DNA of 64,000 nt from Telmatactis stephensoni (lineage: Eukaryota; Cnidaria; Anthozoa; Actiniaria; Isophelliidae), in the NCBI GenBank assembly GCA_029948255.1, contig JALIZF010001728.1:561501-625500 (forward strand), written 5' to 3'. This document shows, piece after piece, positions 2,753 to 34,510 of the stretch. The notes beneath the pieces were generated by a model. That model saw only the letters and a program-made list of their open reading frames with translations, was not told where the DNA came from and did not search any database. A program made the position numbers and the translations under genes. Position 1 is the stretch's first letter. Each line of letters starts with the position of its first letter.

Positions 2753-3133
2753 ATGCCACGATTGGTATTCAAAAACGCGGTTGTAAAGGGTCATCATGCA
2801 TATCAGCACATGGTTGCAGTGGGAGATATCTATGAATGCATTTGTGAGCCCTGGAATGTTCACGATCCCACAGCGGTAGCTATTTACAGTAATGGGCAGA
2901 TTATAGGTCATATCCCAACGGGGTTATGTTCTACGATTTTTCATTTATTCAACACTTTTTCAGGGTCGATACAAGTACTATGGTGAGTATCAAACAATGA
3001 AGGATGTTTCTGCATGATTATCACAAAAATGACGATTATTTTATCTTTATTTGGCAGTGAGATAACAGCTATGCCAATGCCGAGCCAACCACCCTGGCCG
3101 TTCGTATGGTCTCCAGGCGGTGGCATTATTATA
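2753..3133 (+). pseudogene. HIRAN-domain protein, 5' part (exon 1 and start of exon 2)
   Basis: The first in-frame ATG (2753) gives MPRLVFKNAVVKGHHAYQ, followed by a HIRAN core: VGDIYECICEPWNVHDPTAV, then NGQIIGHIPTGLCSTIFHLF. HIRAN domains bind single-stranded 3' DNA ends in HLTF/Rad5-type proteins and also occur alone in mobile elements. Exon 1 ends at 2982 before GTGAGT. A 75-bp intron ends in TTGGCAG (3057), and exon 2 starts at 3058. The frame stays open through ATTATA (3128-3133), where a 4.5-kb transposon is inserted. The reading resumes on the far side at 7684. The protein would be about 138 residues without the insertion. An earlier exon ending near 2740 (TTTTCTTCAG) is possible. Confidence 0.75.
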
Positions 3134-3415
3134 TATGGTGGCCGACAGCTATCATAGGAAAAAATGTTGAAAACCGATAAAAAAATGAATAAAAAATGAA
3201 TAAAATAAAATAAAATGGAAAAATTTGATTTAATCTAAAATAGTTTAAAACATAAATGGAATAAAAAACAAAAAAATTAAAACGATTTCAATGTAAAACG
3301 ATTTTAGAATAAAACGAAATTAAAATGAAAAGTTAGCATGGGCCGAGCGCTATCATAGTACCCCACAATGCATTGCGACCTTCCCTTCCTATGCTTACAA
3401 TGCAAGATGGCGGAT
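3134..3415 (+). repeat. Left 282-bp TIR of the IS3EU-like element, with start codon at its inner edge
   Basis: Begins TATGGTGGCCGACAGC, runs through an A-rich stretch and ends CAAGATGGCGGAT. The final ATG (3407) is the start codon of the transposase. The right TIR ends with the same ATGGCGGAT, which is the start codon of the alpha-kinase. Each arm therefore holds an entire 5' leader, and presumably the promoter. Confidence 0.9.
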
Positions 3416-5554
3416 CTCAGAGTAAGAAATGAGTTGTGGAAAGAAGATGCAAAATTAAAGGAAATGTTGATTAAATATGTACGCCAAGGAATACAAAGGA
3501 ATGAAATATTGGATTTCGTCAGGCGAGATTTTTCTAGCTACGGTTGGAGCATTGCAAGCCTTGATCGAAGACTTCGATATTTCAACATCTACTACAATGA
3601 AGCAAGTGTCACAGTCACTGAAGTGAAAAAGGCCGTAGAAAAAGAGCTTGATGGACCAGGGCAACTCCTGGGATATAGAGCATTACATAAAAAAATCAGG
3701 CAAGAATACTGTCTAAATGTTCCAAGAGATTTCGTTTATGGAGTAATGAAGGAAGTTGACCCCGAAGGACTTGAAGCTCGAAAAGTAGGAATCAAAAATA
3801 AGAGAAAAAAAGGTTGTTTTACTACTCAAGGGCCGAATTGGGTTCATTCATTGGACGGTCATAATAAACTGATGGGTTTTCAAAACAGTGTGTTTCCATT
3901 GGCAATATATGGAAGTATTGATACTGCAAGCAGGAAAATTGTATGGCTTAAGATATGGACAAGTAATAGTAAACCAGAACAGATAGGTCGTTGGTACCTT
4001 GACTATTTGTACGAGAATAGAGTCATGCCATCATATTTACGGGTAGATAAAGGCACAGAAACTGGCACCATTGCAACAATGCATGCTTTTTTAAGACAGA
4101 ACCATGGTGATGTAGATCCAATGGACACAGTGGTTTTTGGGCCATCAACAGCTAATCAAGTAGGTGATAAAAAGAATATCATTATAAATTATAATATAAT
4201 GTTGGAACCATAATGTTGTTGTGTAACTGGTTAGAGTTAGAGTTGATCTTCATTTTTGGTAGGTATCTTGGCATCTTCTGTTCAAATGTTGGATCCAAGA
4301 AGAATGAAATGCCTAGTTATATACATGTATACATCCTAATTTTTAGATTAGAAGAATATCTATTTCTATCTTTGCATGCATATTATTAGTTTAATATCAT
4401 TAAACAAAGATAACAAACATTTTCAGATTGAGAGATGGTGGAAAGAGCTGCACGAGCGCCTTGAAAAATATTACAAGAAGCAACTTCTATGGCTTAAAGA
4501 TCAAGGTCATTACAATCCTCATGATGAAACCCACAGGTATATTTCCAAATCTATTTGTACAAAAAAGTTAGGCATTGCAAATACAGTCAACTCTCCATTT
4601 AACCCTCGGGAAACGAAAACAGTGTCCGTTATTAGAGGTGTCCGCTGAATAGAGTGTCCGTTAATGGAGAGTTGACTATAATTCTCTTTTTCTTTTTTAG
4701 AATGCTACTGGCCTACTTTATGATTCCCATTTTGCAGAAAGAGTTGGATACTTTTAAGAATACAGTATGGAATTCACATAGGATTCGCCAACAAAAAGAG
4801 CAGTTGCTACCTCATGGGGTCCCAGACCACATTTATAGTTTTCCTGACAAATATGGCTTAGAAGAATGTGGTAGGAGTCTTTAACGTGAACTAAATGTGC
4901 ATTATTTAATATTACCACAGAAATAGCACAATATGAATTGTGCATGTCATTCAACTATAGTATTCCAATAATGGTTTAAGGTGGATCCATATAGTTTTAG
5001 GAAATCTGGGACCTAAGAGGCCTTGATGTCAACTGCCCTAATAACTCTCATGAATGATCTATCTAATTAAAGTCTATGATCTGAGGATTATTGTTTTGTA
5101 AAAATGAGCACATGGCGGATCACCATAGCAACACAATGGCTCTCACCATATAGCCCTTTTTGTTATTTAAAAAATAGTAAGCAATTGCCTTATAATGTTA
5201 GTGAGAAAATACTCTGCAAATTTCAAAAAAGAGTGACCGCTTAGCCTCCTTCTCAATCATTCAGAAATAGAAAGGTAAAATCACAATTATACACAGCAAT
5301 TCAAAATACCTTCAGTATGATTTTCTAACAAATGTAAAACAAAACTCATTTTAGGTTGGGAAGTCACTGAAGAACAACTTAAGGAAGCAGCTTCACTCTC
5401 TGGTGTATTAGAAATTGATGAAGATTTTTTAGACCCTACATTCAGGAGGGAATGTGAGCGTGTACTTCCTGACATACAAGAAATAGAGCCTGATGAATGT
5501 GCAGATGCATTTATATTTCTGAAACAAAACTTCACTTTACCGTCAAGCACATAA
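3407..5554 (+). CDS. Integrase-type (IS3EU-like) transposase, four exons
   Basis: Joining four exons with GT-AG borders (3407-4159, 4427-4536, 4701-4870, 5355-5554) gives an uninterrupted 410-residue protein. An N-terminal helical region (1-130) precedes a retroviral-integrase-like core. The likely catalytic residues are D150 (HSLDGHNKLMG), D214 (LRVDKGTETG) and E253, created at the exon 1/exon 2 junction (GPSTANQ then IERWWKEL). The spacing between the second D and E is 38. The C-terminus (HRIRQQKEQLLPHGVPDHIY) matches the conserved tail found in many uncharacterised metazoan integrase-core proteins. An in-frame ATG at 3368 exists, but 3407 is preferred because it lies at the TIR edge and is mirrored by the alpha-kinase start. 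The gene appears intact. IS3EU is the best-fitting superfamily; Ginger is an alternative. Confidence 0.85.
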
Positions 5555-5728
5555 AAAGATTCCATTTTTTACCACATGGATATTAAATATAATGGAACTT
5601 CATTTTTATTGTTTAAAAACATATTAAAACTGTAACATGAAGTAAAATGATAACATGTACTCTTCTCAAATGAATGTCTGTACATTTTAAGCATACCATG
5701 CAAATATACAAAAGAATGTCGCACTTCC

Positions 5729-5946
5729 AGGGCTCGAAATAACAGCCAGACAACGGTCATTGCCCAGCCAAAATAACAGTTTGACCAGTCAAATCTAGTT
5801 TATGATGGTCTACTTGACTGGTCACAAATTCGCTGAAGTTCCAATCTCAAAACGATAGTTTATAATGAACATAGTAAATGACCAGTCAGAAATGCTTTTG
5901 GCTGGTCATCTCGACCTTCCTATTACCAGCTGTTAGTTCGAGCCCT
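5729..5946. mobile_element. hAT-like MITE
   Basis: 218 bp with terminal inverted repeats AGGGCTCGAA on the left and the reverse complement of TTCGAGCCCT on the right. It is flanked by 8-bp duplications GCACTTCC (5721-5728) and GCACTTCT (5947-5954) that differ at one position. The 8-bp duplication and the (C)AGGGCTCGAA ends are typical of hAT non-autonomous elements. It lies in the untranslated gap between the transposase and alpha-kinase genes, so it is younger than their host element and disrupts neither frame. Confidence 0.8.
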
Positions 5947-6141
5947 GCACTTCTGTAAACTTTACCATTCCGCACTTAACATTTTATTTATGATCTGTTG
6001 TTGTTTAAAAACATATAAAGAACTGCAACATGCTGTTAAATTATAACGTCTACTCTTTTCTGAAATGAATGTCTGTACATACCATGCAAGTACAAATGAG
6101 GGGGTGTAAGGGGTATGTTCAAACTTCTGTAGGGGGTACGG

Positions 6142-7404
6142 TCACACTTCTGATAGTTTTAGCATCCTGCAATAAACATTGCATTTATGCTCAGCAACGA
6201 ATTTATCAATTGCCTCTGTTGAAAGATTTCCTGTGGTGAAGAGGATTTCTTTGTCTGGGTCAATCAGTGTCTTGGACGCTATTTCGGGATCAAATAATTT
6301 GTAACCACACCCTTGTATGTCAACTATCATAAGCTGATGTTCTGACTTTTCATAGGAAAAGTGAGCAAGACATTTCGCTTTCTCCAGAATAACTTTATTC
6401 TTTGCACCTGCGCAGATGTTGCCATCATTATTTATGTACTTGTCAAAATCACCTTCGATGTACTGCTCTACTGTTACAAACTTGTCCCCCTTTTTACCTA
6501 GGAAGATGTCAACATACTGTAAATCTTCACCCCATTTCTCATTCAGTCCTTCTTTTGCAACTTCAAGCTCACATTGATGGGCAATGTGCTTAGCAAGACA
6601 ATGCATTTGCACAACTTTTCTAGAATGTTGTTCTTCTGTTTGGAGAGTTTCGGCAATGAGTTCTAGTGCACAATCTTTGTATTCCTTAACTACCCACTTA
6701 AAGGCAGAAAATTCATCATCAGTTGTATCAGCTTTATATGCCTTTCGGAATGCTCCTTCTCCAAGGATTTCTTGTGCAATATTAAATGATGTAGGTTTCG
6801 GTAGCTCTGACCAAATCATATCATGGATGTTAAATTTTGACAATTGAATGAGAGTAGAGGTATCTTTCACAAGCTTTCCAAGTTTGAGCATGTGTCTTAC
6901 TGAAAGACTTCTTGGTACAGTGTGGCTCACGTTTTTCTTAGGACTTGGTAGAGATAACAGTTTCTTACGTTTGGGTGGAGGCATGGAGCTTGTGTCTCCG
7001 TCGTTACTGTCATGGAAACTGAGTAAACTGGTTGGCTTTATGAATCGTGCATAAATCAGTTTAGTATTAGGGAGCTGCCTCATAGAAGTACATGACGGCC
7101 CCTGGTCTCCTGCAACAATGTCACACACTGTATGTTCTGCTATCTCATCTTTAAAGTGCTTAAGACAAGCGCTTTTGATGCTGTCTAAAGTGAGTTCTTC
7201 ATTTGCATTCACTTTAACAAACCGCCTTGGTCCAACTCGGCTGTACTTTTGAGCTTTGCCACTTACTTCCGAGCTCAATCTTTGGACTTGTATTTCGTCA
7301 TTTAATTCCACTGCGGCTGCAGGTGTTTTTCCTTTTGTTCTTTTATCTGACATACCTTTTTTGTATTTATTCCACCGGACCTTCCACGTGCGATCATCCG
7401 CCAT
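6142..7404 (-). CDS. Transposon-borne alpha-kinase (MHCK/EF2K family)
   Basis: An intact, intronless 420-residue frame whose C-terminal half is a full alpha-kinase domain, the atypical Ser/Thr kinase family of myosin heavy-chain kinase, eEF2 kinase and TRPM6/7. Visible landmarks are the glycine-rich loop GEGAFRKAYKA (215-225), VVKEYK (238-243) with the expected ATP-binding lysine at 240, VEQYIEGDFDKY (312-323), NNDG (325-328), the catalytic segment MIVDIQGCGYKLFDPEI (359-375) and the zinc-binding tail FVAEHKCNVYC (402-412). All core motifs expected for activity are present. Residues 1-200 are unrecognised, apart from a basic stretch PPPKRKKLLSLPSPKK that could act as a nuclear signal. The start MADD lies at the inner TIR edge and mirrors the transposase start. 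The gene is convergent with the transposase. A cargo or regulatory role in the transposon is inference. Confidence 0.88.
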   Translation of the reverse strand: MADDRTWKVRWNKYKKGMSDKRTKGKTPAAAVELNDEIQVQRLSSEVSGKAQKYSRVGPRRFVKVNANEELTLDSIKSACLKHFKDEIAEHTVCDIVAGDQGPSCTSMRQLPNTKLIYARFIKPTSLLSFHDSNDGDTSSMPPPKRKKLLSLPSPKKNVSHTVPRSLSVRHMLKLGKLVKDTSTLIQLSKFNIHDMIWSELPKPTSFNIAQEILGEGAFRKAYKADTTDDEFSAFKWVVKEYKDCALELIAETLQTEEQHSRKVVQMHCLAKHIAHQCELEVAKEGLNEKWGEDLQYVDIFLGKKGDKFVTVEQYIEGDFDKYINNDGNICAGAKNKVILEKAKCLAHFSYEKSEHQLMIVDIQGCGYKLFDPEIASKTLIDPDKEILFTTGNLSTEAIDKFVAEHKCNVYCRMLKLSEV

Positions 7405-7677
7405 CTTGCATTATAAGCATGGGAAGGGAAGGTCGCAATGCATTGTGGGGTACTATGATAGCGCTCGGCCCATGCTAACTTTTCATTTTAATTTCGTTTT
7501 ATTCTAAAATCGTTTTACATTGAAATCGTTTTAATTTTTTTGTTTTTTATTCCATTTATGTTTTAAACTATTTTAGATTAAATCAAATTTTTCCATTTTA
7601 TTTTATTTTATTCATTTTTTATTCATTTTTTTATCGGTTTTCAACATTTTTTCCTATGATAGCTGTCGGCCACCATA
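7396..7677 (-). repeat. Right 282-bp TIR of the IS3EU-like element
   Basis: Reverse complement of 3134-3415 with about two differences. Its inner edge contains the alpha-kinase start codon (7402-7404), and its outer edge abuts the ATTATA duplication. Confidence 0.9.
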
Positions 7678-7794
7678 ATTATACCCTGTTACTATCATAT
7701 TTTTTGTTCTGATGAAAACACAATGGAGATACTACAGGCTTTGCAGGCAGCAAAAAATTTTGTACCAGATGGCGTACTAGAATTACATGTATAA
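7678..7794 (+). pseudogene. HIRAN-domain protein, 3' part
   Basis: Continuation of the exon interrupted at 3133. After the ATTATA duplication the frame reads PCYYHIFCSDENTMEILQAL and ends with HV and TAA at 7792-7794. The two halves join in frame when the nested element and one duplication copy are removed. The stop lies 23 bp before the end of the convergent transposase gene. Confidence 0.7.
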
Positions 7795-7816
7795 TGCATC
7801 TAAAAGTCTTCTAAAA

Positions 7817-8953
7817 CTACAGATATCCACATTGTTTATAATAGTTGATGGTATTATCAATAGTGATACTTTGGAGGGCCATACCAATGGCAATTTTCGT
7901 CTCCTCCCTTGCCAGTCTTTGCTCGCGGCGGAGCCAAGCTTTCATTTGGTTAAACTATGATTCACAGGGATTCAAGTGTGGCGAGTATGGTGGTTGAAAA
8001 AGTAATCTTATTCCATGGTTTGCAAACATGTTTCTCAAGACAGGCTCAACGAAGTTACCGTGATGGAAACCACAGTTATCCATTACTACAACATCATCCC
8101 TTTCTAATATCGCTGATCCATCTGGTTTCTGCACCTGCAAAGATTCTTCAAAAATATTTAGAAGTTCTATACCATTGGAAGGTCCTTCAATAATGTTGAA
8201 GTACTCAACGCCGCTGTATGAAATAAGCAAATTGACAGTATAATTGACATTAGATGTATAATGTTGTTGTTCGATAGCTCTTGATCCTATAGTTGAACTA
8301 CCGTATTTCCTATTGCAGGTTGTTTTTACGACACTGGTCTCATCAAAAAAGTGCAGTTTTGTAGGATTTATCTGACTGATTTCAAATAGATATTCATTGG
8401 TTAGTTGAAGTGTACGGGCATTGTTCGCTTCTGACGGTTGAACCGTTATTTTTTTCTTGGACATTAGAAGATCTCGTCTCAATCTTCTGTTTATTTGAGA
8501 AACAGAGGGTAGATCCGCCCTATTTACAACCCCATCAAGCACAAGTCTTTCTTGTAGCTCGCTTGCATACACTGAAGGTTTTTGTAGTTTTTCCACTTCT
8601 AGATACTACAGTACATTATCATCAATTTTTCTAATAGGCCCTCCATTTGAAGATTTCATGGCTGGTAAAGAAGTGTTCTCTTTGTCATACCTTTCAATGA
8701 CTTTTTGTGCAAAAAATTTACTAACCCTCGTAGCTTGAACAATAGCTCGTTGAGAGAAATTATTGTGATGAAGATCGAGAATGCGTTCACGAATAACATG
8801 CGGATATCGGCAGCCGTGATCATAAGTCCCACCATTTTGGTTCTGACGAACAAGACATTCTGTAAAACAGTAAAAAATTGTAATATATATCGAATGATTT
8901 AAAACAAAACTAGGCCGATTCATCGTACCTTGACGGGGCGCAAAAGGAAACAT
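7817..8953 (-). pseudogene. Tc1/mariner-type (IS630-like) transposase with two TAG stops
   Basis: Minus-strand gene starting MFPFAPRQ (8953), with a short intron (about 8860-8928, GT-AG). A paired-like helix-turn-helix follows (RYPHVIRERILDLHHNNFSQ, then a second helix to VIERYDKEN). The DDE catalytic domain contains FFDETSV, VVMDNCGFHH and QPPYSPHLNPCE. The second D and the E are separated by 38 residues. The single frame is interrupted by TAG at 8606-8608 (after KIDDNVL) and TAG at 7955-7957 (after NPCES), and then stays open to a natural-looking stop at 7817-7819 (YYKQCGYL). Apart from the two amber codons it is well preserved, so inactivation is recent or the element is moved in trans. 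Confidence 0.8.
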
Positions 8954-27148: not shown

Positions 27149-29025
27149 TCAAGGACAAACAGGGCCTCTACTGCGGACATAATCCCATTGCCAAGGGACA
27201 GCTCCTTCTTCTGAATTTAGATAAGCCTTCAGCCCATCCCGTACTTCGATCGCAGAGTTGGTATATCTTGAACCTCTGGGTAGAGGAAGATCTACGAGAG
27301 CTCCAGTATCAGCCAATTCACTTCTCCATTCGCCAGGCCTTAAGCTGCCATCCGCATCTTGGGTGTCGACAAATCCAGGGGGGGTATAGGTGGCTGATTC
27401 TGTTTGGCGAAGGTAGTTGTGCAAACAAACAGATGCCTGTGTAATTTGCTCCACGGTTTCGACTGAAGCCTGTATTGGGCCACGAAAGATCCTCCATCGG
27501 GCGACTAAAATGCCAAAACAGTTTTCGATGACACGTCTGGCACGAGATAGCCTGTAGTTATAGATGGTTTTGTCTTCTGAAATCCCCTTGCCAGGGAAAG
27601 GTCTCATTAGCCATGGTTTCAACCCAAAGATCTCATCTCCAACAATGAAGTATGGCACCTTATCAAGATGACAGCCTTCGATATGGGAGGAGGGAGGGAA
27701 ACATATGGTTCCATTTTCAAATGACTTCCCCATTTCAGACTCCAAAAGAACACCACTGTCATTGGTACTCCCATACTGGCCAATGTCCACAAGGGTAAAA
27801 TTGTAATTAGCATCACATAAAGCTAACAGGACGATGCTAAAAAAGCCCTTATAATTGTGGTATTGAGTACCACTGCCTGCAGGACATTGCATGGCGATGT
27901 GTTTGCCATCAATGGCACCTACACAGTGTGGCAGATTCCACACCTCTTCGAACTGCTGAGCAATCATCAGCCACTCATCAAGGGAAGCAGGTGGGCACAA
28001 GTACTCATCACTGAGTGCCAAACAGATGGCAGGGAGGCATTCTCTGATTATTGTTGATACAGTTGATGGTGCAATTCTATAAGCAAAGCTTACAGATTGT
28101 TGGTCATTCCCACATGCCAGGTAACGCACAGTTAAGTGGAGCCGTTCTGAAGCACTTATGGGTTCTCTCATGTGTATGGTTTTCTTCTGTATTAATGGTC
28201 CGACCAAGGACAGTAGGTGATCAAACCTCTCTGGTGACATACGTGTATATCTGTTATATAAATAATCAAATATAAAAATAGTTATATCATTATGATAATT
28301 GGTGCCACATTGAAAGTGTGATTCCACTGACTACTAATTAAACTTATTTTATAGCTCACGAAGCCAGGACCTTGTCAATTGAATAGATCAAAAATAATTT
28401 AAAAGGAAATCACAACGTATCATGTAATTATCAACAAATATCGATGACGTTCATTGACCCCATGTTTTGATAAGTTTTTTTCATTTCTTCTCTGAACTGC
28501 ATATATCCTGCTTGCAGCTTTTCTTTAATTTTATAGACCTTTTTCTGGCAGTTTAACATAATTGGCTTGCAAAAATAATAAAACCTACACTATAAAACGA
28601 CGAAAAATTGTGACAAATAGTACAGAGCCGATCGATTCGTGACACGAAGAGAAATTATCGATATTATTCCTCGTATTTATGTATATTGAGAGACATTAAA
28701 ACCTCATTGAAAATCGATAGGTATTCACACTTTCTTTTAAAACTGGCAATATCGTTGTAGCATTAGCTTGAATTGATGTCTGAGATTGAAATATAAAAAC
28801 AGCCAAAAACTGTACTTACCGAAAGTACATTTCCCTATCAGTAACTCTGATTTCTCTTATCAGGTTTTCGTATTGTCCGAGTCTTTTCCTCCTCAAAAAA
28901 ACATCCCTCACCCAGAATCTCCTTTGCTGCTTCTCGCAAGCTAATTTTCTCCTCCGTCGACGTCTAAATGTTAACAAGACAAACAACTCCAGCAAGACTG
29001 CATCTTGCTCGTCGGCGTCCGACAT
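27149..29025 (-). CDS. PIF/Harbinger transposase 1 (two exons)
   Basis: Exon 1 (29025 to 28820) encodes MSDADEQDAVLLELFVLLTF, a basic run, and RRFWVRDVFLRRKRLGQYEN. It ends at a GTAAGT donor. Exon 2 (28250 to 27149) starts after TATAACAG and is in frame, giving 435 residues without a stop. The DDE domain (DDE_Tnp_4 type) shows GAIDGKHIAMQCP, YFIVGDEIFGLKPWLMRPFP and RARRVIENCFGIL, which supply the catalytic D, D and E. A helix-turn-helix-like region (RYLACGNDQQSVSFAYRIAP) precedes it. The gene appears intact, although its MADF-BESS partner is damaged. The intron (28251-28819) holds nothing else I can identify. Confidence 0.9.
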
Positions 29026-29567: not shown

Positions 29568-31602
29568 TTAGTTTCTGAAGTGATTCTTGAGAGCCTTTTT
29601 AGATTTTACAATATTTGTTTCTTTGCGATATTTAGGTGGTAACAAATTCCATGTATTAGCTCCATTTATTCTGAAGGAATTTTGATATTTCGTGGTGCGA
29701 GCTGGTGGAGGTCTAAGCAAATCTTTGTTCCTAGTATTATAATTATGTACGTCAGAGGAAAACCTAAATTCGTGTAGCAAATATTCTGGTGCTAAGTTAT
29801 TCAGACATTTGAAAACCTGCAGGCATATATGGTAAGATCTCCTAGACTGTAATGACGGCCATGAAAAGATAGTATTTAGATCAACTTGATCGGTAGATTT
29901 AATCCCCTCAATGACTCTGGCTGCCCGACGATGTAATTTATCTAGGTAGCCTTTATTAATCTTTCCGCAGCTATCCCAGACGGCACAACAGTAGTCAAAG
30001 AGTGGTAAAATCATTGCATTGTAAAGCGTGATACATGCCTCTCTAGGAATGACCTTTCGAGCTTTCCGTAACATGCCAATTCGCAATGAAATTTTTGAGG
30101 CAATGTAGTCCATATGGTCATTCCAAGAAAGACATGGATCAAGCATTACTCCCAAATACTTAAATTGGTAGACTCTATTGAAATAAGTATCTTGAACTTT
30201 GACTGTAAAAACATTCACTTTTGCAAGCCTCTGATGTGTACCAAACAACATGATTTTGGTCTTAGTGTAATTAAGGAAAAGGAAATTTCTGTCAAGCCAA
30301 CTTATAACATTATTTAGATCACTAGACAAACGAGATTCAATGACATCAACAGACTTACTACTGAAAAAAAGAAGAGTATCGTCAGCATACAGTTGTATAC
30401 CGCAATCCTTAACTACAGTAGGAAGGTTATTTATGTAAATTATAAATAATAAGGGTCCTAAAATAGATCCTTGCGGAACTCCAAAATGAATAGATTGCAG
30501 GTCAGATACTTCGCCATTTGTGACAATACTTTGAGTTCTGTTCGTTAGGTAAGCATTAAACCACACTAATGTTGAGTTAGAGAATCCCAATGAAGACAGT
30601 TTTTTGAGCATGAGGTTATGATCCAGGGTGTCAAAGGCTTTGCTTAAGTCCAAGAAAACCATACCAGTAAGTAATCCTTTATCCATACTGCACTTGGTTG
30701 GTCATGTCAGATTGGTAGGTAGAGAGCAGTTTGTTTTCCTGTAGATACGTGTACACCATTTTGTGGATAGCACGTTCCATAATTTTCATAAACACAGGTA
30801 GCACTGAGATAGGTCTATAATTCTCGGGTTTGCTCTTTGAGCCGGACTTGTGCACTGGTGTTACTAGCACATGCTTCCATTCTGTTGGGATGGCTCCTTC
30901 AGCAATAGACCTGTTCATGAGTAAAGCCAAAGGTTTTCCTAGTTCCTCAGCACCATCTTTGAGTAGGCGCGCTGGGATGTTCTTCAAACCGGTAGACTTT
31001 GATGATTCGATGTTTCTGAGGCTTTTTTTCACAAACTCTTCTGTGATAGTGGTGAGTCTGAACTTTTGATGTAAATTATAAGGAAAGCCAGTGTTTACGG
31101 TCACAGCCTGCAAGGACTGCCTTATGCTTGTGATGGCTGTATAGAAGTACTGGGCTAGGCCTTTAGCAATCTCTCTAGGTTCGTATGTTAAGCCAGCTGT
31201 AGTTTCTATACAGGCTATGCACACAGACTTGTTGGAACTGGAAATTACAGACTTGAGGGTTTTCCACAAAGAAGCAGAGTCTTTCTTGTTTTCATTGATG
31301 ATGTTAGTGTAGAAGTCCCGCTTTGCACTTCTGATCAGGCCTGTTGTTTTATTGCGCAGTTCTCTGTATATTTTCCACTCAGCCAAGGATTTAGTTTTTT
31401 GAGCTTTTTTATGATGGAAATCATGGCTCCTCATTGTACTTCTGATTTCGTTTGTTAGCCATGGTAGACTAGCCACACGCACTCTTCTAGATTCAAGTGG
31501 TACATGTTTGTCTATTATGGTCTTAAGTGTTGATTTAAACTCAATCCAAGCCTCATCAACTGTCAATGAAGTGTTAACCTTTTCCCAAGAGGCAGTATGC
31601 AA
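29568..31602 (-). pseudogene. LINE reverse transcriptase and C-terminal domain
   Basis: The 5' part (31602-30690) encodes the connector (KIYRELRNKTTGLIRSAKRD) and the RT start (KPENYRPISVLPVFMKIMER). Near 30690 about two dozen codons are replaced by unrelated sequence. From 30686 the frame holds FLDLSKAFDTLDHNLMLKKL, GVPQGSILGPLLFIIYINN, the catalytic YADDTLLFF, and the thumb/C-terminal part ending KKALKNHFRN. RT motifs other than the deleted segment are intact. Normal function is copying LINE RNA at the nicked target. Confidence 0.85.
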
Positions 31603-31657
31603 ATCTTCTAGAAATCTTTCGGTTGAGTAGTTCTTAAAATTTCTATAAACAATTTTT

Positions 31658-32665
31658 TTAGAAGGACAGCGCGGCTTTTTTTGCGCGTCTAGTCAAAAAT
31701 ACAAGGGAGTGATCGCTAATAGAACACGGGATCACTCCAGATGCGAATATCTTGTCCTTATCTGATGTAATAGCCAGGTCAATCAATGTCGAGGACCGCT
31801 CTGTGACGCGAGTGGGTGATTTTATAAGTTGTGTAAGCTGATAAGCAATAAAGAGTTGTCGAAGATCCCTTGCTTCAGTAGAGAGTCTTTTGGGGAGCAT
31901 GTCCTGGTTAAAATCACCTAATAGTAGAGTCTCATAGCCTACAGCAGACGTTTTTTCCAGAGATTTCTCTACGTTGTTTCTAAAAGTGTTGTAGTCTTCG
32001 TTGGGTGGTCTGTAGATTGAGCAAACAAGGATCTTTTTCTTATTAGGAAGAGTAATTTCAAGCCAACAAGCTTCAACATTTTGGTTAATATCAGTTCGTT
32101 GACGAGCCATAAGCTTTGTGCTGTAATAAATCGCAGTTCCTCCTCCTCTCTGGTCATTTACCCGATCAGTCCTGATAATGTTATACCCATCGATGCGTAG
32201 TTCACAATCTGACCATGTAGAGTTCAGCCACGTCTCGCTAAGGCATAAAACATCGAATGGGTTGGCAATTGTGAGCAATTTCAGTTCATTGAGATGCTTT
32301 GGTAGGCTTCGGATGTTGAGATGAGCAATCTTTAGGCCAGGAGAATTTAATACAGGGTCGGTCCAGCCAGGATTTGGAGAAATATCACCAGCTAGAAGAA
32401 GAAGAGCAGCTAGAGAGCAGTACTGGAAGAGCTTGAATGCTTTAGACAGTTTCAGAGACTTTGGAGAGACGCTTGACTTTGGCTTGGTTCTAATTTTAGT
32501 TTTTGGTAACTCGCTTGACATCAGCAGTTTACCCACAAAAAATGAGCTAGTAGTAGTTTGAACAGTACCTTTCGACGATTCAAGAGGCATAAGCCCTTTT
32601 AGAATGATGTAAAGTAGGTAGAAACTGCGCAATTTAAACGGAGCGCCAAAACACACAGCCGCCAT
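31658..32665 (-). pseudogene. LINE endonuclease (APE-type) domain
   Basis: From ATG 32665 the frame encodes a 5' leader with hydrophobic run CSLAALLLLAGDISPNPGW, then an APE-type endonuclease: LKIAHLNIRSLPKHLNELK, VLCLSETWLN, DQRGGGTAIYY, VCSIYRPPNEDYNTF, LLLGDFNQDM, SSTLIDLAITSDKD and ISDHSLVFLTR. Catalytic positions in these boxes look preserved. The ORF ends early at 31658 by a frameshift; the following connector is in another frame. Confidence 0.85.
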
Positions 32666-33223
32666 GTTGAGCCACCTAATAATGCATGAGGAATGCAAGA
32701 ATAGTTCAACCAGTGATTCACTGATGTGGGTTATTTTAAAGTCTGCAAAGAAAAATGTGTGGACTCTAAAGAACATTTACTAGCTAGAAAGCAAATACTA
32801 GACTGTTTGCATTATTCTGATTACTACAAATCAAACATGATAAATTATAAACCTTATTATATTGGAATGACAAACTGTTTAATCAGCAGTGAACTCATGT
32901 TTTTTTATACTTTTTAGTACTATTTGATACAATATCATGCTTATTTTTGATGCACTCTATGATACAGAACCATTTAGGCCCCGTCCACACGTATACGTTT
33001 ACGTTTGTAAACGCATACTTTTTTATGCGTTTAGGCCTTCCGTCCACACGTAAACGCCTAAAACGCTCATCGTAAACGCATATTTTCGAATACGCTCTCC
33101 AAAGTGGATAAATTCGTAAACGACTAAAAAGCGTTTACGTGTGGACACCCGTAAACGCATACTTTCGAAAACGCTGACGTCATAACCTCGTTTCCAGTCT
33201 CACCGATGTAGCTTGAATCCAAT

Positions 33224-34510
33224 ATGGCGGACAATCGCTTGTTGGCGTCTCTTCTGCTTGGCTTGATTTCTAGCCTTGTTGCCTGCATTGAAGTCAATTT
33301 GTCCATTGTAAATGCCCATTTCAATTACATTAGAAGAAAGCTAAACCTAGTAAGGTTAATAAGTTCATTTTCAAGACGGCAGAGCGTATTAAAACGACTT
33401 GGAGGTCAAAACGTTCTACGAAGAACTCGAAGATTTTGGGTTAGACCTGGAAGAACAAGTGCTTGGTGGGACAACTTAACAGCAGGAATTGCCATAGAGG
33501 AAGAATGGAAAGAGAATTTTCGAATGAGCAGGTCTTCACTGTACAGTCTAGCTGAAGAGTTGAGACCCTATATTGAAGGACGAGCAACTATTATGAGATC
33601 ACCTGTGGATGTTGTGAAACAAGTTGCTTGCACACTCTATTACCTCAGTGATGAAGACCGCCTTCGGAAAACAGCTAATGCTTTTGGAGTTTCCAGACAA
33701 ACTGTTTCAAAAATTGTTCGTAAAGTCTGCAGAGCCATCACTTTACACCTTGGACCAAAGTACATGAAGCTGCCAGCAACAGAAGCAGAAGTTCAAGAAC
33801 TTGTGCAGAAATTTTACAATGCTTATGGCTTTCCTCAATGCTTGGGGGCAATTGATGGCACTCACATTGATATAAAGCAGCCAAGTGTTAACTCAACTGA
33901 TTATCTTAATAGAAAGTCAAGATATTCTCTAAATGTCCAAGCAACTTGTGATTACAAGTACTGTTTTATGGATGTGGTTGTCAAGTGGCCTGGCAGTGTC
34001 CATGATGCCAGAGTTTTTGCCAACTCAAGTATAAATGCAGCACTAAAAAGTGGTAAAATTCCTTATTGCATAAAAGAAATTCTACCAGATGAAGATGGAG
34101 TGCCTGTGTTTCTCCTGGGTGATCCTGCATATCCCTTGATGCCATACTTAATGAAAGAATATGCCAGTGGAGGCTCAACAAAACAGGAACAATACTATGG
34201 TATGACACTATGCAAATCCCGAATGGTAATCGAGTGTTCATTTGGTCGTTTAAAGGCAAGATTTGGTGTACTGAAGAGGTCAATGGATATAAACTTGGTT
34301 GATTTACCACATGTTATCTATGCTTGTTTTGTGTTACATAATTTTTGTGAAATGAACAATGAAAGAATAAATGAGGAGCATGTTGTTTCTGCTATTAACT
34401 ATGACAAAGAATTCCAGCCACCACGTGTGACCAATAATTACAGAACTGACTGCAATGAAGCAGAAGGTAAAAAGATTCGACAAATTCTTACAAAATTCCT
34501 CGATCCTTAA
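33224..34510 (+). CDS. PIF/Harbinger transposase 2
   Basis: An intact intronless 428-residue frame from the ATG of [11 protein letters not shown]. The N-terminal region is hydrophobic then basic ([12 protein letters not shown]), followed by a helix-turn-helix-like segment ([20 protein letters not shown]). The DDE_Tnp_4 core has [31 protein letters not shown] and [17 protein letters not shown], which supply the D, D and E residues, plus the conserved [11 protein letters not shown]. The length is typical for the family. It cuts and pastes the element at TWA-like targets, normally needing the SANT partner encoded at 36028-37029. Confidence 0.93.

Follow-up and report, generated by a model that had tools for sequence, protein, structure and literature searches.

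The window, which is the whole stretch of 64,000 nucleotides analysed here, lies on contig JALIZF010001728.1 of the actiniarian Telmatactis stephensoni (assembly GCA_029948255.1; C226:561501-625500 of the host genome G000, 483.5 Mb in 1782 contigs). Positions 3134-7677 of the window are a DNA transposon that carries a convergent pair of genes, a transposase and an alpha-kinase. The terminal inverted repeats (TIRs) are 282 nt long and identical at 280 of 282 positions (2 mismatches; 3134-3415 against 7396-7677), the termini read TATGG..CCATA, and the hexamer ATTATA is duplicated on both flanks as a target site duplication (TSD). Ends, TIR length and duplication thus agreed to the base with a preliminary description of this DNA. 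The features are as follows:

3128..3133, no strand: TSD ATTATA, left, equal to 7678-7683
3134..3415, plus strand: left TIR, contains the transposase start codon, 280/282 identical to the right arm
3407..4159, plus strand: transposase exon 1, 251 codons, with catalytic D150 and D214
4427..4536, plus strand: transposase exon 2, with the catalytic glutamate E253
4701..4870, plus strand: transposase exon 3
5355..5554, plus strand: transposase exon 4, ends in the stop codon
6142..7404, minus strand: alpha-kinase gene, 420 amino acids (aa), with a helix (4-23), a possible beta-grasp domain (about 36-123), a basic linker and the alpha-kinase domain (215-412)
7396..7677, minus strand: right TIR, contains the kinase start codon, 280/282 identical to the left arm
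7678..7683, no strand: TSD ATTATA, right, equal to 3128-3133

Four transposase exons, with introns inferred from the reading frame and GT-AG sites, splice into one uninterrupted frame of 410 aa, which contains the integrase core PF24764 (Pfam, E 1.1e-23). The residues D150, D214 and E253 occupy columns that are invariant or nearly so among the transposase relatives, which came also from Patella, Lingula and Ciona (protein matches alone). The kinase is a single exon with PF02816 (Pfam, E 6e-36). Both genes were therefore as intact as the preliminary description had stated. Because the two start codons lie inside the TIRs, both proteins start with MAD. One gene begins in each TIR, the transposase reading inward from the left and the alpha-kinase inward from the right, so that the TIRs probably double as transposase sites and promoters.

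The element has an exact 6-bp TSD, TA..TA ends, TIRs longer than 30 bp and an integrase-type DDE transposase, and by these features it is an autonomous IS3EU-class DNA transposon. The IS3EU/GingerRoot superfamily is described with the same TA..TA ends, usually 6-bp TSDs and an integrase-type DDE transposase; the word kinase has 0 occurrences in the accessible text of that paper (PMC10045372), unlike the kinase-bearing element of the window.

The gap between the two genes (5555-6141) has no frame of at least 100 aa, hence no TET/JBP gene was seen there. By eye, the gap contains a small nested inverted-repeat element (5728-5949; CAGGGCTCGAA...TTCGAGCCCTG), which is bracketed by an 83-bp direct repeat (5606-5685 and 5998-6080). 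Another short inverted-repeat element (TCAACTCTCCATT) occupies 4579-4683 in transposase intron 2.

Copies, families and gene linkage in the host genome

The TIR search of the host genome returned 37 matches, 12 full-length and 25 partial (71-80% identity, confined to the inner A-rich part). The full-length matches pair into six elements (the window copy and those on C536, C291, C679, C45 and C350), here family A. All six carry the kinase, end in TATGG..CCATA and have an individual exact 6-bp TSD, and the six TSDs are all different (ATTATA, ATATAC, GTGCAT, GACCAC, GACCAG and CTCCAC). Since five further copies have independent TSDs, chance is excluded as the source of the element's anatomy. No kinase-less or miniature copy with the family A TIR was found at the sensitivity of this search; a majority of copies lacking the kinase, which the preliminary description had named as evidence against a core gene, thus came out as 0 of 6. 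The window copy is 99.5-99.9% identical to the four other uninterrupted copies, and any two of the five are 5 to 14 substitutions apart over 4.5 kb, as expected of the IS3EU-like, recently mobile element proposed earlier. The transposase frame is intact in 5/5 uninterrupted copies and the kinase frame in 4/5 (4/6 of all copies); on C536 the kinase is cut short by a stop codon at position 120, and on C45 it is split by two insertions.

Six families besides A were inspected at the DNA level. Family B (C7) is a complete element of 6284 bp with TIRs of about 416 bp (97% identical) and TSD TAGATC. Family C (C343) is complete at 4502 bp, with identical 398-bp TIRs and TSD CACATG, and family G (C120) at 6917 bp, with TSD CACGGG and ends that resemble each other over roughly the outer 25 bp, the inner repeats being 71-77% identical. 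With family A, families B, C and G share the ends and the convergent gene order, and their TSDs are exact (one copy each examined at both ends). Integration with a 6-bp TSD is shown by nine copies from four families. The kinases of B, C and G are 37-48% identical to the window kinase. The family C transposase matched in one unbroken 396-aa stretch, and this piece by itself scored 18.6 bits against PF24764, below the cut-off of 26. Two family C copies with differing flanks (L027 on C343, L028 on C724) both adjoin the hexamer CACATG, by chance or by target preference.

Family D (C362) has both transposase and kinase; the outer end on the transposase side was not found. In family F, the nearest convergent transposase is 18 kb (C1285) and 25 kb (C250) from the kinase (regions C1285:2144-22076 and C250:385805-412399). 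By eye, the gap on C1285 is occupied by a retroelement with reverse transcriptase-like and recombinase-like frames, which accounts, at least on C1285, for the lack of a transposase in the first 12 kb; kinase and distant transposase are inferred to be one element. Family E (C374; L023, C374:263577-267770) has an open kinase frame and one TATGGTGGCC end motif, and no transposase was found within about 9 kb downstream of its kinase, so that L023 may have been interrupted or may be a derivative that kept only the kinase. The motif TATGGTGGCC occurs upstream of the kinase in 7/7 families. It is a proven element end in A, B, C and G; in D it lies near the similarity limit of two copies, and in E and F it comes from the motif search alone.

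The kinase protein search of the host genome gave 107 matches, grouped into 77 loci, and the search with transposase exon 1 gave 160 matches, 150 of which were listed and form 117 loci. The linkage counts are lower bounds (100/160 kinase and 150/304 transposase candidates scored, 150/160 transposase matches listed), and both the line between near and distant transposases (42% identity) and the 27-kb limit were chosen after the lists had been seen. Some loci are partly non-independent: L029/L030, L039/L040 and L044/L045 agree including their flanks, and each pair is maybe one locus assembled twice. A convergent near-class transposase accompanied 37/77 kinase loci within 10 kb and 47/77 within 27 kb (chance expectation 0.05 and 0.13, respectively). 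With 37 pairs within 10 kb against 0.05 expected, chance adjacency of kinase and transposase was rejected. Conversely, 44/62 near transposase loci (≥42% identity) had a convergent kinase within 27 kb (37/62 within 10 kb, 32/62 within 5 kb), and the distant transposase loci (<42% identity) had none (0/55 within both 27 kb and 5 kb; 1/55 in any orientation). Among kinase loci with at least 700 matched bases, 36/47 had a near transposase within 27 kb and 11/47 had none.

The host genome holds at least seven kinase families, mutually 35-62% identical, and a single recent capture, the other outcome that the preliminary description had named as contrary to its claim, does not agree with that divergence. 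Identities of the kinases (36-50%) and of the transposases (48-62%) were correlated across the five families in which both genes are present (r = 0.89), and 8/120 permutations of the labels reached the observed correlation (rounded numbers). At least five families of this genome have diverged with the kinase still paired with one transposase clade, so that the kinase very probably works for the element and not for the host. The kinase is almost certainly an old core gene of the near transposase clade and not a recent capture, and the presence of a kinase in every TIR copy and beside most near transposase loci bears out the core-gene status claimed earlier.

Selection on the kinase differed among comparisons. 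The five uninterrupted family A copies have eight variable kinase sites (5 synonymous, 2 missense and 1 nonsense; 31% synonymous expected, p = 0.065), which is suggestive only of purifying selection among recent copies. The kinases of E and F are 62% identical; their nonsynonymous divergence (dN) is 0.29 and their synonymous divergence (dS) is saturated, an indication of purifying selection between these families. Synonymous to nonsynonymous differences in recent kinase pairs were 4:0, 2:0, 1:2 and similar in A, 3:1 in F, 2:8 and 2:9 in C, 0:2 in D and 6:17 in G, and recent differences in C and G look neutral. In the dN/dS counts, which covered pairs more than 50% identical, L024 and L028 were omitted (incomplete or interrupted frame) and L019 contributed only the part after its stop. 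The selection across copies that the preliminary description had proposed to measure was suggestive in A and was not apparent in C and G.

The kinase protein and its relatives

The window protein has the hallmarks of an alpha-kinase (PF02816, ATP lysine, VDIQG and zinc ligands), and the glycine loop and the other residues listed in the preliminary description are present. Conservation was scored over the 120 homologues that were listed and retrieved among 217 found, with gaps set aside. The ATP lysine K240 was kept in 119/120 and G217 of the glycine loop in 117/120, E313 in 120/120 and D362 in 119/119, and the zinc ligands H348, H406, C408 and C412 in 118/120, 113/114, 113/115 and 112/115, respectively. 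The functional roles given to these residues are presumed to be those of TRPM7. The modelled kinase domain matched TRPM7 (1ia9, E 3.3e-18) and further alpha-kinases.

The active site is near-invariant and the linker variable: the mean frequency of the top residue was 0.34 in the linker, 0.71 in residues 36-123 and 0.61 in the kinase domain. A basic cluster was present in the linker of 83 of the 103 homologues, out of 120, whose linker could be delimited (crude pattern, no control). No Pfam match passing the curated cut-off was obtained in the N-terminal part, and the kinase domain is the only one that Pfam detects in the protein. Residues 36-123 were modelled as strands around one helix, with weak structural matches to ubiquitin, ISG15, RA and SPN domains and a monooxygenase subunit. 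The model suggests a possible ubiquitin-like beta-grasp domain; matches this weak are uninformative on function. Known alpha-kinase proteins (TRPM7, myosin heavy chain kinase A, eEF2K and ALPK1) include channel, calmodulin-binding or WD40 parts. The window kinase has the kinase domain, fold and active site in common with TRPM7 (ChaK) and the other three, at an identity of about 20%, and differs from them in its N-terminal domain.

Searched against databases, the window kinase had 217 relatives and the family G kinase 223 (120 listed each). Named sources among the listed relatives (protein matches alone) were the cnidarians Paramuricea, Dendronephthya, Actinia, Actinostola, Exaiptasia, Acropora, Oculina and Desmophyllum, and the hemichordate Saccoglossus. 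Among the 120 listed homologues of the window kinase, 115 cover at least 80% of the 420-aa query, and PF02816 is the sole precomputed Pfam domain in 120/120. In a tree of 124 kinases (the 117 of 120 listed that were long enough and seven from the host genome), the host-genome families were scattered among the others. The Exaiptasia diaphana protein P0244 is 93% identical to a family G kinase (L033) over 73% of its length, which probably reflects a related host, horizontal transfer being the alternative. No relative of kinase or transposase was confirmed in IMG/VR or in prokaryote genomes. Upstream of database protein starts, TIR-derived sequence was sought in 23 extensions (28 hand-picked, 5 too short), and 4 reached 15 or fewer of 300 shuffles (P0017 0, P0049 1, P0240 5, P0091 11; partly low complexity), which is only a hint that such extensions derive from TIRs. 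The gene model P0012, in which a transposase-like N-terminus is joined to a kinase, is likewise only a hint.

Known elements and the proposed role of the kinase

In every fungal TET+ IS3EU family, a TET gene lies between a transposase gene and an alpha-kinase gene that are oppositely oriented, and the rust families have 6-bp TSDs, TAYGG..CCRTA ends and TIRs longer than 30 bp (Kojima 2025, PMC12730594, accessible text). The statement in the preliminary description that no such transposon had been described therefore did not hold, the alpha-kinase being mentioned there in passing. With the elements of rust fungi and Tuber, the window element shares the 6-bp TSDs, the ends and the opposite transposase and alpha-kinase genes (TIR length given for the rusts), but no third gene was seen in it, whereas the fungal elements have TET/JBP between the two. 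The likeness of fungal and window kinases is one of described gene order. This was the one pertinent paper in the literature search on kinases in DNA transposons, as judged from the listings, and the search, which covered mostly open-access literature (Repbase lying outside it), found nothing on animal kinase-bearing elements or on a role of the kinase. New with respect to PMC12730594, as far as its accessible text goes, are the animal members, the genome-wide linkage, the possible ubiquitin-like domain and the basic linker. The element is a DNA transposon of a known kind whose second core gene is unusual, and it is not the first example.

The element is probably an IS3EU transposon with two core genes whose kinase regulates its movement, a reading that draws on anatomy, mobility, linkage, parallel divergence and the conserved active site. 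The protein would be a nuclear Ser/Thr kinase, perhaps with the possible ubiquitin-like domain at its N-terminus as the guide to a target; action for the element in the nucleus is favoured by a narrow margin. Its substrate could be the transposase of the same element or a host factor in chromatin or silencing, and phosphorylation would control the timing or efficiency of movement. That the transposase itself is the main substrate is a conjecture more doubtful than credible.

A counter-defence role, in which the kinase would inactivate a host silencing or DNA-damage factor much as the TET/JBP of fungal transposons is proposed to counter methylation-based silencing, is unlikely to be the full account. 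It gains from the presence of TET/JBP between both genes of TET+ fungal IS3EU elements (PMC12730594, accessible text), and the ubiquitin-like domain, if real, could touch host regulators (weak matches); it is without a known target, and forms a special case of regulated movement, inseparable from it on present data. A passenger gene, by which the element would spread because the kinase is of use to the host cell or organism (e.g., in signalling or immunity), has a small probability. The 11 long kinase loci without a convergent transposase within 27 kb and the open family E frame with no transposase found nearby would fit a passenger, but partners, where found, were near-class and convergent, and kinase and transposase diverge in parallel. 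Fungi moreover have the same pairing (PMC12730594, accessible text), and a need common to the elements is likelier there than one common to the hosts. A single recent capture of a host alpha-kinase, with relatives that would be normal host genes as annotated (TRPM6-like, eEF2K or myosin heavy chain kinase-like), is hardly tenable: several homologues do carry host-kinase names in databases, but it is refuted by the complete families B, C and G, the divergence of seven kinase families and the genome-wide linkage, and is opposed by the single-domain homologues, most of which cover at least 80% of the query.

The recent intact copies are material for asking whether phosphorylation can let a transposon control itself or its host. 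A passing remark on fungal elements becomes a testable rule, that one IS3EU-like transposase clade travels with an alpha-kinase and a distant lineage in the same genome does not. In cnidarian genomes, many of the genes labelled TRPM6-like, eEF2K or myosin heavy chain kinase-like may belong to transposons, and this affects kinase family counts. Rusts are reported to have a highly expanded alpha-kinase family (PMC4469406, accessible text), and in light of PMC12730594 this expansion may partly consist of transposon genes. It is a tentative idea, less probable than its negation, that a whole transposon clade found in both fungi and animals works as a machine of two genes with its own atypical kinase, bearing a ubiquitin-like targeting domain and obligate for the regulation of transposition, as the first such dependence; if true, much of the alpha-kinase expansion, reported for rusts and annotated for corals, would be transposon genes.

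Flanks of the element

Joined without the element, the window flanks gave an open stretch of 85 codons, and a splice from it to a HIRAN-like exon (PF08797, E 1.6e-5, barely above the cut-off) is possible by eye. The open stretch agrees with the host frame that the preliminary description held to be restored on removal; since the HIRAN match lies entirely left of the insertion, the restoration is plausible, not proven. A HIRAN-domain-like gene or gene fragment (2754-3133 and 7684-7800) adjoins or hosts the element. Further along the window, frames at 7955-8953, 27149-28327, 29568-32776 and 33224-34510 resemble by eye Tc1/mariner-like, Harbinger-like and non-LTR retroelement genes, and the stretch is transposon-rich.

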